Below, in pieces: positions 5,239 to 20,537 of a stretch of DNA of 20,537 bases. Below the pieces are notes generated by a model. That model was not told the origin of the DNA. It was given only the letters and a program-made list of their open reading frames with translations, and made no database searches. Location of the stretch: positions 1 to 20,537 of the IMG/VR virus record IMGVR_UViG_3300021197_000100. One strand, 5' to 3'. The position numbers and the translations under genes were made by a program. This DNA comes from a virus. Within the stretch, counting starts at the first letter, position 1, and each line of letters starts with the position of its first letter.

Positions 5239-6309
5239 TTAGGCCAAGTTGTACTTAGCTGTGACAAGAGCTTCTGGACGAAGAATCTTGCGACCGTATA
5301 GATGCATACCACGAACAATGTCAGCGAATGAATCTGGATCACGGTAAGTTTCAGTCTTGTTGATCTGCTCGGCAGTTGCTACAGAAGAATCATGACCAGC
5401 AACAATTACACCATAGTTAGTGTTTTGGTTTGCTGTACCTGTAGTAGATGCGCCTGTGCCTACAGAAGGAAGGTTGTTTGAAACGTGTACACGGAAACCG
5501 TGGAAGTTATTCAAAACCATACCATTCTGGATGCCAGAACCACCGAAGTCTGCATTCAATAGACGTGAATCTTCATCACGAAGTACTTCCATCATCACGG
5601 GGTCAACAACGATCCAGCGACCTTGTGTCGGTACATTTTGTGCATCCAACAAACGTGCCATACGTGCAACAAGCATTGCAGGTGAGACATAAGCAGTTGG
5701 AAGTGCAGTTGCACCGGGAAGACGTGCAGCAACTGGGATAGAGTGATCCGCAGCAGAAGCTGTTGTGATGTTACCAAACGAACTTTTGATCAGCTTGTTA
5801 GCTGCCAACAATTCGTCAGAACCTGCAGCAGTATTTGCTTTAGTTCCGTTAACGGCATCATTTACTGCTCCTGCATTTGCGTGTAGTGCGGCTTGTTTAT
5901 AACCAGCCAAATAGCCAAGAACTTCTTGGTCATGTTGGTCAGCCAAACGGAAGGCAGCACGATCACTTGCAAGCGTTTGGAAATTGACGTGGCTATGAGC
6001 CTCCTCAATATCGTCTACCTTGAAAGCAAAATAGTTAGCTTTATCAACAACTAACGAGAAATCGTTATCTGTCAAGTCCTGCTGGGTAATAGTTGTACCA
6101 CGAAGATACGCAGAGACGGAAATCTCTGGTTCTTTGATGATTTTAACTGTGTCACCCATGTTGGCGATTTCGCCAAAATAATCGTTGTTAGTGATTGCGT
6201 CAACAATAGATGCCTTGCGGAATGCAAGTTGCACCTGTTTGCTGTAAATTACAGGCGAGAAGTTGCCTGAGTTCAGGTTGGTATAACCTGAAGCCTTTCC
6301 GAATGCCAT
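5239..6309 (-). CDS. Major capsid protein
   Basis: A 356-residue protein. It has a short N-terminal arm (MAFGKASGYTNLNSGNFSP), then YSKQVQLAFRKASIVDAI and NMGDTVKIIKEPEISVSAY. The central part is ANYFAFKVDDIEEAHSHVNF, with a later GRWIVVDPVMMEVLRDEDSRL and a C-terminus LYGRKILRPEALVTAKYNLA. Length, the VDDIE...A segment, the WIVVDP..M segment and the LRPEAL end fit HK97-fold capsid proteins of tailed phages. The gene has the best ribosome site in the window (AAAGGAG, seven bases before ATG), its own predicted promoter and a leader stem-loop, all consistent with the most abundant virion protein. Scaffold lies immediately upstream and tail adaptor downstream, the usual order. Confidence 0.9.
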   Translation of the reverse strand: MAFGKASGYTNLNSGNFSPVIYSKQVQLAFRKASIVDAITNNDYFGEIANMGDTVKIIKEPEISVSAYLRGTTITQQDLTDNDFSLVVDKANYFAFKVDDIEEAHSHVNFQTLASDRAAFRLADQHDQEVLGYLAGYKQAALHANAGAVNDAVNGTKANTAAGSDELLAANKLIKSSFGNITTASAADHSIPVAARLPGATALPTAYVSPAMLVARMARLLDAQNVPTQGRWIVVDPVMMEVLRDEDSRLLNADFGGSGIQNGMVLNNFHGFRVHVSNNLPSVGTGASTTGTANQNTNYGVIVAGHDSSVATAEQINKTETYRDPDSFADIVRGMHLYGRKILRPEALVTAKYNLA

Positions 6310-6475
6310 AATAATTCTCCTTTAGCATTTAGATTACAGATGCAAACTATTAATTACGTATGCGAAGGCTATGTACTACTAGGGTGCGTTCTTTAGAAAG
6401 TTGGCCGACCTTCTATTAAACGGGCCATGAGACATTAGGTTGTCCGATAGAGATTAGTATTGTTTGCTAAGTTAT

Positions 6476-6525
6476 TAATAGTGCCGGGTAACCGTAGTTG
6501 ATACCTAGCGGGGCCGACACTATTA
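6476..6525 (-). promoter_or_regulatory. 12-bp stem-loop in capsid mRNA leader
   Basis: Arms 6514-6525 and 6476-6487 pair over 12 bp (TAATAGTGTCGG with CCGGCACTATTA, one U-G wobble) around a 26-base loop that can form a further GTA/TAC stem. The predicted start of the capsid transcript is only about six bases upstream, so the mRNA would begin with this structure. Such 5' stem-loops are known to protect mRNA from decay; that role here is inferred. Confidence 0.6.
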
Positions 6526-6538
6526 CATTGTACATATA

Positions 6539-6566
6539 GTTATATCATATATAACTAAGATGTCAA
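6539..6566 (-). promoter_or_regulatory. Promoter for capsid gene (TTGACA-N16-TATAAC)
   Basis: On the minus strand there is a perfect -35 TTGACA (6561-6566), a 16-base spacer, and -10 TATAAC (6539-6544) preceded by TGA, an extended -10. CTATATG continues after the -10. The same TTGACA-N16-TAWAACTATAT pattern recurs at 20110-20137 and 20330-20357. A 9-bp inverted repeat, TAGTTATAT/ATATAACTA with a three-base loop (6537-6557), overlaps the -10. The site lies between the scaffold stop and the capsid gene. Confidence 0.7.
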
Positions 6567-6571
6567 TAGGT

Positions 6572-7441
6572 TTATCGGGCATTTCCCGACATATCGTAAA
6601 CAAATTTACCTGTACGAATAGATTCCATAATTTCATCAGAAAGGGATTCGTACTGCTGGGCAGACATTTTGTTTACTTGTGACTCAGAAAATACACCAAC
6701 TTTACTTTCAGTTTCTGGTGCATTGTTTCCGCTACGACTATTTACAGAACGAGCGGCGTCACGATTACTAGATGTTTTCTTTGCCTTGATACCCATGTCA
6801 GCTTTATACAAATCAATTGCACGAGAGGCTGAACGAGCATCACTATCATTTTCATACAGTGCATCCTGTACCCACTTGGGCTGTTCTTCTACCCATTCAT
6901 GGAACTGATCACTGTCACGAATATCACCAAAATCAGGGTGAGCCTGTAACAATTCAACTTCAGCTTTTTTACGACTAGCTTCAGCTTTCATTTCGTCAAT
7001 TTCTTTTACACGGTTTTCCAAACCTTCTGCTTGCTCACGTGCTTTTTTAATTGCAATAGTTTCTACAATAGCCGCTACGTCTGGATACTGTTCCGCCCAA
7101 GCTTCAATGTCACTATCGGACTTAGGTAGTTTAATCTCTTGCTTAGTAGATTGCTCAAGTTGACGTTCAAGTTGTTTAAACTTTTCGTCCCAAGACTTTT
7201 CTTTTTCTTGCATATGGCGTCTAAGATCACCATAGCGTTTCTTAAAACTCTTATCTTCTGCATTTACAGGTTCTTGATCGTCTTCCTGTACTGCCTCTTT
7301 AGTTTCGCCATTCTGTTCAGCAATAAGTTCGTCAAGTTCTTCTTGCTCTTGCTTACGGCGTTCTTCATTAGAGTATTTACGGTTTGCAAATGCTGCAACT
7401 TTAGGTGTCTCTACTTCACCTACAACAGTAGTATCATTCAT
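6572..7441 (-). CDS. Capsid assembly scaffolding protein
   Basis: A 289-residue, highly charged, largely helical protein. Residues 22-60 are Glu/Gln/Lys-rich, 66-105 and 128-165 look like coiled coils, and the segment HPDFGDIRDSDQFHEWVEE near 168-186 is of a kind seen in phage scaffold proteins. The C-terminus (near 255-289) contains NKMSAQQYESLSDEIMESIR, and its basic/helical end would be the expected coat-binding part. By family it guides capsid assembly and then leaves the prohead. Its position directly upstream of major capsid protein supports this. The ATG has only a weak ribosome site. Confidence 0.85.
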   Translation of the reverse strand: MNDTTVVGEVETPKVAAFANRKYSNEERRKQEQEELDELIAEQNGETKEAVQEDDQEPVNAEDKSFKKRYGDLRRHMQEKEKSWDEKFKQLERQLEQSTKQEIKLPKSDSDIEAWAEQYPDVAAIVETIAIKKAREQAEGLENRVKEIDEMKAEASRKKAEVELLQAHPDFGDIRDSDQFHEWVEEQPKWVQDALYENDSDARSASRAIDLYKADMGIKAKKTSSNRDAARSVNSRSGNNAPETESKVGVFSESQVNKMSAQQYESLSDEIMESIRTGKFVYDMSGNAR

Positions 7442-17604: not shown

Positions 17605-17792
17605 TACTTATAGCCCCCACCTTTTGCTTTATATTGCTTTGCAACCATTTGTGCCTTACGTGCGCTCCACTGTCCGGGCTTTCCACCTTTGCCACCAGCT
17701 TTAACGGAGGCAACAAGACGCTTACGCATAGTAGGCTTAGTATAATTACCAGCCGCATTAACCGTTGAAGACTTTTTGGGTAATTTCGCCAC
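17604..17792 (-). CDS. Conserved small basic phage protein (STVNAAGNYTKP type)
   Basis: A 62-residue basic protein from a GTG start: MAKLPKKSSTVNAAGNYTKP, then TMRKRLVASVKAGGKGGKPG, QWSARKAQMVAKQYKAKGGG. I recognise the pattern as common in marine phages, without known function. Net charge and Gly/Lys content suggest nucleic-acid or virion contact, which is inference. It overlaps the end of the DUF1127 gene by 35 bases in another frame. Confidence 0.75.
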   Translation of the reverse strand: MAKLPKKSSTVNAAGNYTKPTMRKRLVASVKAGGKGGKPGQWSARKAQMVAKQYKAKGGGYK

Positions 17793-17907
17793 GAGAAATT
17801 CCTATATCTTTTAGCTCTTTGTCGGACATATTGCGAAGCAACCAATAATCTGCACGGCGTTGTTGTGCTACTGCGATTGCTTCAAACCAATTGATTAACC
17901 ATTTCAT
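17758..17907 (-). CDS. DUF1127 protein
   Basis: A 49-residue protein. The start at 17907 is fixed by a strong AAGGAG eight bases upstream. It begins MKWLINWFEAIAVAQQRRAD, a hydrophobic/amphipathic helix, and continues YWLLRNMSDKELKDIGISRG, the DUF1127 (YjiS-type) signature of form L..LSD.EL.DIG(I/L)SR..I. In bacteria these small Arg-rich proteins occur mainly in Proteobacteria; some are linked to phosphate/carbon metabolism and RNA turnover. Its presence in a phage suggests acquisition from the host. It has its own 106-base leader with -10-like repeats, and the next gene begins inside its last 35 bases. Confidence 0.85.
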   Translation of the reverse strand: MKWLINWFEAIAVAQQRRADYWLLRNMSDKELKDIGISRGEITQKVFNG

Positions 17908-17956
17908 GTTTATAACTCCTTGTTTCATGAACGTACTCTTTTTTAGAGTATAAGGA

Positions 17957-17980
17957 AGTTATACCATATTTAGTTATACC
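17957..17980 (-). promoter_or_regulatory. Candidate promoter/operator before DUF1127 gene
   Basis: GGTATAACT occurs twice in direct orientation (17972-17980 and 17957-17965), 15 bp apart. The first copy reads TGTGGTATAACTAAATATG, close to the TATAACTATATG of the capsid promoter, with a poor -35 (TTGCAT) 17 bases upstream. It may be a weaker member of the promoter set or a repressor site. A 6-bp hairpin TACTCT/AGAGTA with an AAAAA loop (17934-17950) follows in the leader. Confidence 0.4.
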
Positions 17981-17993
17981 ACACTACAGACAA

Positions 17994-18016
17994 TAATGCA
18001 ACCCCGTTATGCATTA
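17994..18016 (-). promoter_or_regulatory. 7-bp inverted repeat at end of the 119-residue gene
   Basis: TAATGCA and TGCATTA flank a nine-base loop containing GGGG, and the repeat includes the stop codon of the upstream gene. No U tract follows, so it is not a standard terminator; an mRNA end or stability role is possible. Confidence 0.3.
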
Positions 18017-19647: not shown

Positions 19648-19926
19648 TTACCATTTTACTTTATCTGCCCAGTAAGCTGCACTTAACTTACCACGCTTAA
19701 TGTTCTTCGCATGACGTGCCTTAAAACTTGCACGTTTCTTTTTCATCTTATCTGATTCACCTGCTTTAGGCTTACCTGCAGTACTTGCACCTTGCTCACC
19801 AAAGCGTATCATCTTAATGGTAGTACCTTCCTTAGCGAGTACTACGTGAGATTTGGTAGGATGTTTAGGTGTACGCTTGGGTTTGTTGTACCCACTGAAT
19901 GTCTCACCTCTGTATTCAACCGTCAT
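19648..19926 (-). CDS. Conserved phage protein (MIRFGEQG...AAYWADKVKW)
   Basis: A 92-residue basic protein: MTVEYRGETFSGYNKPKRTP, then KMIRFGEQGASTAGKPKAGE, RASFKARHAKNIKRGKLSAA and a C-terminus YWADKVKW. The KMIRFG and SFKARH...AAYWADK...W pattern is one I recognise as widely conserved in marine phages and cyanophages, with no known function. It overlaps the previous gene by 11 bases. Confidence 0.8.
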   Translation of the reverse strand: MTVEYRGETFSGYNKPKRTPKHPTKSHVVLAKEGTTIKMIRFGEQGASTAGKPKAGESDKMKKKRASFKARHAKNIKRGKLSAAYWADKVKW

Positions 19927-20131
19927 GTCCGTCTGTCCAACCTTCCATACGCATAGCCCACTCTACGTGCTCTAACGTAAATGATTTACCGTAGTGGGCA
20001 TCCACTGCAGTCTTTACATAAAATACATCACTATGAGGAATGTGCAACTTATCTAAGTTACCATCTAATACATGTTTATAGAACTCTTCCAAAACATTGT
20101 CTGTATATAGTTTTACTGATTTCTTTGCCAT
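19916..20131 (-). CDS. Small protein of unknown function, first gene of the block
   Basis: 71 residues from ATG at 20131 (MAKKSVKLYTDNVLEEFYKH). A TTG two codons upstream (20137) is possible, but that triplet is part of the TTGACA promoter hexamer. The C-terminal half FYVKTAVDAHYGKSFTLEHV, then EWAMRMEGW, looks like a small helical domain of phage type. The ribosome site is weak. It is the first gene after the right-end regulatory region. No function can be named. Confidence 0.7.
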   Translation of the reverse strand: MAKKSVKLYTDNVLEEFYKHVLDGNLDKLHIPHSDVFYVKTAVDAHYGKSFTLEHVEWAMRMEGWTDGHDG

Positions 20132-20137
20132 TGTCAA
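20110..20137 (-). promoter_or_regulatory. Promoter motif TTGACA-N16-TAAAAC over first gene start
   Basis: Perfect TTGACA (20132-20137), 16-base spacer, TAAAAC (20110-20115), then TATATA. The layout is the same as the capsid promoter and the 20330-20357 copy. Its -35 touches the start codon of the first gene, so if active it would drive the second gene and those after it. Confidence 0.5.
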
Positions 20138-20537
20138 TACTTAATTACAAGTTTCTCGCCTAAAGGCAGATTTCACTTACGTATTAGTACATTTAAGTGT
20201 ATTCACTGTACGTGTTTACTTATATGTTTATATAGTTAAATATAATTAATAGATAAGTATATATACATTTAACTGTATCACTGTACGTGTATCACTGTAA
20301 GTGACCCTACCCAACACCCAACATATATAGTTTTACACATTCTATAAAACATGTCAACCCTTAATCGTACAGTGTGTCAATAATAGGGATATTATCCCAC
20401 ATATCGTGACTAAAACGGGACAATGTTCCACATATAATAGGTCCACATCGGCCCTATGTACATGTAAACCAGTATATATGTAAAGTGGTTAACAGTGATA
20501 TTTCCTGATCTGTGTGTTTGTCTGTATATACTAACGT
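20138..20537. other. Gene-free AT-rich regulatory region
   Basis: I see no supported gene here on either strand. It holds the promoter at 20330-20357, direct repeats of type TCACTGTACGTGT (20203-20215, 20278-20290) with variants TCACTGTAAGTGA (20292-20304, a 5-bp inverted repeat) and TTCACTTACGTATT (20172-20185). An inverted CGTACAGTG is at 20366-20374. Three (C/T)CCACAT boxes lie at 20396, 20427 and 20442, and AACCA/TGGTT arms near 20467-20490. A further TTTAACTATATA, -10-like without a -35, is at 20229-20240. It is likely a control region for the block, perhaps with an origin or regulator sites. Confidence 0.55.
20330..20357 (-). promoter_or_regulatory. Promoter motif TTGACA-N16-TAAAAC in right-end leader
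   Basis: Perfect TTGACA (20352-20357), 16-base spacer, TAAAAC (20330-20335), followed by TATATATG. A second TTGACA lies at 20375-20380, and a GGGATA/TATCCC inverted repeat (20386-20398) sits upstream as a possible operator. It would give a leader of about 190 bases before the first gene. Confidence 0.6.

Follow-up and report, generated by a model that had tools for sequence, protein, structure and literature searches.

The window, by which we mean the whole stretch of 20,537 nucleotides analysed here, is a viral record of 20.5 kb. The coat protein it encodes shares 88% identity with that of Roseobacter phage CRP-1 and 81–60% with those of CRP-13, CRP-9, CRP-345, HMO-2011 and CRP-2, which identifies the window as a fragment of an HMO-2011-type podovirus (roseophage). 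The genomes of complete relatives are divided into two arms, one for replication that runs rightward and one for structural genes that runs leftward, and these diverge close to the ends of the records. Of the two, the window represents the leftward (late) arm, with all homologous genes on the minus strand. The gene directly upstream of the capsid promoter Pcap belongs to a PHROG of unknown function (Table 1), and judging by its position its product could be a scaffold protein. Phages of the HMO-2011 type form one of the dominant viral groups in the sea (PMC9038755). The literature searched, with partial coverage, yielded no statement on transcription control in these phages and no paper on their promoters.

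Table 1. Positions of the features discussed, in window coordinates unless another record is named. Promoters are predicted.
Feature	Position	Strand	Remark
Major capsid (coat) protein gene	5239..6309	-	88% identity to CRP-1 coat protein
Capsid mRNA 5' leader	6310..6532	-	start predicted about 7 nt after the -7 base
GTTTGC strand	6342..6347	-	can pair with GCAAAC (6462-6467), closing the domain, or with the strand beside the Shine-Dalgarno sequence
Structured leader RNA core (model R1)	6362..6448	-	57.4 bits, E 2.4e-12
Leader 5' hairpin, stem flanking a GCC/ACC internal loop	6477..6524	-	flank pairing
Promoter Pcap, TTGACA-N16-TATAAC(TATAT)	6539..6566	-	exact match; before the capsid gene
Gene directly upstream of Pcap	6572..7441	-	phrog_13678, E 2.4e-64
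DUF1127 small protein gene	17758..17928	-	PF06568, E 6.3e-8, above curated cut-off
Variant promoter TTGCAT-N17-TATAACTA	17973..18001	-	upstream of the DUF1127 gene
Conserved 71-aa ORF, 5' end carries P2	19916..20131	-	unknown function
Promoter P2, TTGACA-N16-TAAAAC(TATAT)	20110..20137	-	exact match; overlaps the start of ORF 19916-20131
Promoter P1, TTGACA-N16-TAAAAC(TATAT)	20330..20357	-	exact match; intergenic, head of the leftward arm
DNA-polymerase-stop sites (records of four relatives)	12503, 13358, 12686, 10304	+	conserved motif

Three exact sites and their conservation

The pattern TTGACA-N16-TAWAACTATAT has exactly three matches in the window, at 6534-6566, 20105-20137 and 20325-20357, each on the strand (minus) that also carries the surrounding phage genes. 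The initial annotation had listed these three sites with coordinates that span TTGACA to TAWAAC only, and had found no other exact TTGACA site of this layout. Both observations hold once strand and extent are corrected, since even with up to three mismatches the window contains just these three, where shuffled sequences predict 0.26. The spacer, described there as an identical 16-base element, is common in length and not in sequence. The expected intergenic placement applies to P1, which lies about 200 bp upstream of the first ORF, and not to P2. Pcap begins 5 nt past the stop codon of ORF 6572-7441, and about 220 nt separate it from the capsid ATG. A simple promoter scan of the stretch up to position 20000 reported none of the three sites, because it demanded T at the last position of the -10 element and ended at 20000.

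The proposal of a recurrent, phage-wide promoter class is borne out in the relatives. In the window together with eight relatives (nine phage sequences), TTGACA-N16-TAWAAC occurs 15 times compared with 0.4 in shuffled sequences, an enrichment of about 40-fold. For the other spacers we observe 5 versus 0.4 with N17, none with N15 and 1 versus 0.2 with N18. This restriction to N16 and N17 fits the spacing that sigma-70 requires. CRP-1 carries all three sites at homologous places. In the fetched IMG/VR loci, every contig that reaches this far has a counterpart of P1 about 180–320 bp before the homologous ORF; counterparts are also present in CRP-1, CRP-345 (N17), CRP-13 (TATAAT), HMO-2011 (TATAAT, N17) and CRP-2 (TATAAT), the last three with T at -7. 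Before the capsid gene of CRP-235 the motif is absent; by eye, a weaker -35 element and TATAAT are present there. Aeromonas phage MQM1 was considered as a control with a gammaproteobacterial host for a change from C to T at -7, and was set aside: the gap upstream of its capsid gene is short and the site is absent.

The conservation is strictest at the capsid gene. All 55 distinct leaders drawn from 80 capsid loci fetched from IMG/VR contain TTGAC[AT]-N16/17-TATAAC, 231–330 nt before the coat ATG. A second set of 63 distinct leaders from the same collection, partly overlapping with the first, was fetched by the DNA pattern of the leader RNA and scored without regard to position 3 of the -10 element, -7 and -6. 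TTGACA, TATAAC and T at -6 are each found in 63 of 63, with a spacer of N16 in 59 and N17 in 4. Spacers and flanks diverge widely while the -35 and -10 elements persist, so that the conservation is that of the two elements themselves. The expression behind our class logo required C at -7, and the statement on this base rests on the 55-locus and 63-leader sets instead. Among TTGACA-N16/17-TAWAAN sites in the phage sequences, the base at -7 is C in 20, T in 4 and G in 1. Across relatives the extension consists of an invariant T at -6 followed nearly always by A, which gives CTA. The further TAT is kept at the two head-of-arm sites and is not general at the capsid site, where only some leaders have it. 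We conclude from these alignments that the three sites are real, strictly conserved and not due to chance; their sequence, position and extreme conservation are direct observations.

P2 has an unusual location. Its -35 element ends directly before the ATG (20131) of the 71-aa ORF, whose product has no Pfam or PHROG match, and the -10 element with its extension forms codons 6–9 (V-K-L-Y). In 59 distinct homologues, codons 6–8 are GTA in 58 of 58, AAA in 58 of 58 and CTA in 58 of 59. Adjacent codons for Ala, Lys, Ser, Tyr, Thr and Asp show synonymous variation, and CTA is rare at the other Leu positions of this gene. Since GTA-AAA-CTA is frozen at its synonymous positions, P2 looks functional rather than an accident of coding. 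A transcript start at P2 would fall inside codons 10–11, and P2 therefore probably serves genes downstream. In CRP-13 this gene starts differently and a TTGACA-N16-TACAACTA site is located upstream of its ATG instead. Between P1 and P2, positions 20160-20310 contain AT-rich repeats (CACTGTACGTGT, ACATTTAA-type), which may be protein-binding sites. Around 20231 the match to CRP-1 is to its other strand, as would result from the inversion of a short segment.

Two further sites belong to this survey. The variant promoter upstream of the DUF1127 gene had been missed in the initial annotation because its -35 element differs. Its pattern was retrieved in 77 IMG/VR stretches, and a DUF1127-like signature lies within 420 nt in 58 of the 76 that could be tested. 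The DUF1127 gene appears to have its own host-like promoter, GGGGTTGCAT-N17-TATAACTA (17758-18001 for gene and promoter, minus strand). The fifth site belongs to the rightward arm: TTGAC[AG]-N16/17-TATAACTA straddles the stop codon of the DNA polymerase gene in CRP-1, CRP-345, CRP-2 and HMO-2011, and is absent in CRP-13, CRP-9 and CRP-235.

The polymerase predicted to read the sites

The three sites combine TTGACA at -35, a spacer within the 16–18 bp range, T at -12 and A at -11, and they lack T at -7. With C at this position they do not have an E. coli-type consensus -10 element. The combination of TA at -12/-11 and a -7 base that is not T is found in alphaproteobacteria, where transcription start site maps indicate that more than 60% of sigma-70 promoters lack T at -7 and where CarD is proposed to compensate (PMC8407463). 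The best reading of the -10 element, TAWAAC followed by TA, is this alphaproteobacterial type. In 47 distinct rRNA promoters of the Roseobacter clade, with the form TTGCGG-N17-TARAAC, we count at -7 C 24, G 11, A 10 and T 2. Planktomarina (RCA lineage) has two PF02559 matches per genome in 4 of 4 genomes, one in a long ORF that is Mfd-like by length and one in an ORF of 176–190 aa that we take as CarD. No match to sigma70 region 2 (PF04542) was obtained in the eight relatives, while the positive control was detected. The host-like C at -7, the CarD-family gene and the lack of any such match in the relatives together favour host sigma-70 polymerase acting with CarD.

We therefore regard the sites as likely to be strong promoters for the housekeeping sigma-70 RNA polymerase of the host; activity, strength and timing are what we infer from the sequence. 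The consensus TTGACA, the 16–17 bp spacer and TAWAAC plus TA would together recruit this polymerase. P1 and P2 would drive leftward transcription from the start of the late arm, and Pcap would fire again just upstream of the capsid gene, providing extra transcripts of the structural protein needed most. Host CarD could compensate for the absent T at -7; by analogy with host promoters, we consider such a CarD dependence plausible, with about even chances. We found no paper on phage promoters and CarD in our partial coverage of the literature. TTGAC-N-TAWAAC is not enriched in the host genome, so that the host does not usually combine the elements as the phage does. The phage is also stricter, with its C at -7 and T at -6, than the roughly even base use reported for host promoters (PMC8407463), which could mean an additional phage-specific constraint. 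This strictness may tune strength or escape at a promoter that otherwise follows the consensus, may impose dependence on CarD or may be due to a phage factor.

The last of these options leads to the alternatives. The initial annotation had taken CTATAT as the sign of a phage-specific class, possibly read by host RNA polymerase with a phage factor. The host polymerase is the favoured reader here as well. CTATAT as a class mark is not supported, given that only CTA is general and that host-clade rRNA promoters have C at -7 more often than any other base. A phage-encoded activator or RNA-polymerase-binding protein could recognise CTA with its C at -7 and T at -6, or remodel the host polymerase for a late class. 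The invariance of both bases in all 63 capsid leaders, beyond host usage, would agree with such a protein, as would the mostly uncharacterised early genes of the relatives. Yet the elements alone already fit host sigma-70, no additional upstream motif is common to the site classes, and with no match to sigma70 region 2 in the relatives a phage factor is not needed, nor was one found. We consider it quite unlikely. A single-subunit, T7-like phage polymerase reading AACTATA as its promoter core is very improbable: ACTATA superficially resembles T7-type cores, but TTGACA at a fixed distance of 16–17 bp would have no role and CTATA beyond CTA is not kept at the capsid site. The T7-type domain PF00940 has no match in the eight relatives, where the control likewise remained unmatched and the window is a fragment; a comparative paper on this phage group does not mention an RNA polymerase (PMC9038755). 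Scarcely credible, finally, is conservation as a mere by-product, of coding at P2 and of shared ancestry at Pcap and P1, with no promoter function at all. P2 does lie within a coding region and the contigs are related, but both elements stay while their surroundings diverge, the synonymous sites of P2 are frozen and the enrichment depends on spacing. Host sigma-70 polymerase remains the preferred reader of the sites.

A structured leader RNA before the capsid gene

The leader between Pcap and the capsid gene is about 220 nt long in the window and mostly 195–305 nt in relatives. RNAalifold applied to the whole leader after plain MAFFT alignment detects no structure because the stems are variable in length; anchoring on the core solved this problem. 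In the core alignment A1 of 35 sequences, 14 of 18 pairs from the energy-based prediction are changed on both sides. For the fuller named structure, 86.6% of cells are paired and covariation is 0.476, compared with 0.173 when shuffled and 0.06–0.10 when slid. In 60 model-aligned sequences covariation is 0.473 versus 0.156 shuffled, in an alignment that leans towards the structure. The flanks of the 5' hairpin pair at 5.73 of 7 compared with 3.61 for swapped partners, an optimistic value owing to selection; its GCC/ACC internal loop is also visible in the core.

At the 3' end, leaders carry the strand GTTTGC or GTTTAGC. It can close the domain or form an alternative hairpin adjoining the Shine-Dalgarno sequence. 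Pairing in the closing helix is modestly above the partner-swapped control (-9.99 versus -8.88, sd 0.35). Such a pair of alternative folds would suit a switch, with modest support for the closing helix.

The distribution of this RNA is strict. With the model, a single copy is detected in the window and one in each of the eight relatives, in every case immediately upstream of the coat gene, and the 487 kb searched contain no other match. The matches include CRP-2, CRP-235 and a freshwater genome, none of which was used in building the model. A search with the DNA pattern of the core, made blind to the capsid gene, retained 80 loci. In each of them the coat gene starts 82–185 nt downstream, and every one of the 75 with enough upstream sequence has the promoter. 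Both capsid promoter and leader RNA are absent in the Rhizobium and Sinorhizobium relatives and in pelagiphage HTVC033P. In 61 Rhodobacteraceae genomes the model has no match, in a run without a positive control. Neither the leader of the window nor seven other loci match Rfam at E values up to 1, and we found no paper on this RNA in partial literature coverage. Within the databases and literature searched, it is an undescribed family.

Covariation establishes the structure of the leader: a conserved fold with compensatory changes upstream of one gene. It probably acts as a cis-regulator of capsid expression, a function that we read from sequence and position. The transcript from Pcap would then open with a structured RNA that regulates the capsid gene in cis. 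The main rival is that the leader serves the transcript and not translation, as a cis-acting antitermination element (put-like) or as a stability element of the long late transcript. Its location beside the promoter, where a long operon begins, speaks for this. Against it, each genome has a single copy with none after P1, and the leader abuts the ribosome site of the capsid gene at a tight distance, as translational leaders do. In MW202701, moreover, a putative HNH endonuclease gene (29516-30256) splits the promoter from the RNA, and the RNA stays beside the capsid gene. An antitermination or stability role is therefore, in our view, rather unlikely. Regulation of the capsid gene in cis is the reading we prefer. 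In its furthest form, which we put forward only tentatively, the leader would represent a new class of phage regulatory RNA that, in the closest relatives, always comes with the host-type promoter with C at -7. It would sense a viral protein or metabolite and set capsid synthesis by exchange between the closed multi-helix domain and the ribosome-site hairpin, in a highly abundant group of ocean viruses. Since RNA binding is known for a DUF1127 protein of Rhodobacter, the DUF1127 protein of the window is a candidate partner of the leader RNA.

Comparison with known systems

The promoters vary a known kind, and the leader RNA is the more interesting part of the locus: its family is uncatalogued, its structure clear and its genomic address exact. 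For the promoter set, the match to the rRNA-type -10 element of the host leads to a testable model of host sigma-70 polymerase capture, which predicts a CarD dependence that can be measured. The promoters of Rhodobacter sphaeroides and Caulobacter without T at -7 (PMC8407463) share T at -12, A at -11, a base other than T at -7 and a spacer of 16–18 bp with the phage sites, and the host genus has a CarD-family gene. Unlike these promoters, in which A, C and G are about equally frequent at -7, the phage sites have a full TTGACA at -35 and fixed C at -7 and T at -6. Roseobacter rRNA promoters resemble the phage sites in having C at -7 in half of the cases and T in only 2 of 47. In 21 of 48 they carry GGGG before TTG, as do P1 and the DUF1127 promoter. 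They differ in the G-rich -35 element TTGCGG, the spacer of 17 and the -10 element TAGAAC, which is followed by a C-rich stretch with C and not T after -7.

Phages that lack an RNA polymerase of their own have late and internal sigma-70 promoters, located where an arm begins and upstream of the capsid gene, that are read by the host polymerase. What the literature searched does not describe for such promoters is the architecture with C at -7 or a structured leader attached to them. Translation-controlling leaders such as riboswitches and ribosomal-protein leaders are likewise multi-helix structures that end at the ribosome site, with a possible hairpin beside the Shine-Dalgarno sequence. In contrast to these families, the phage leader has no Rfam match and is located before a capsid gene.
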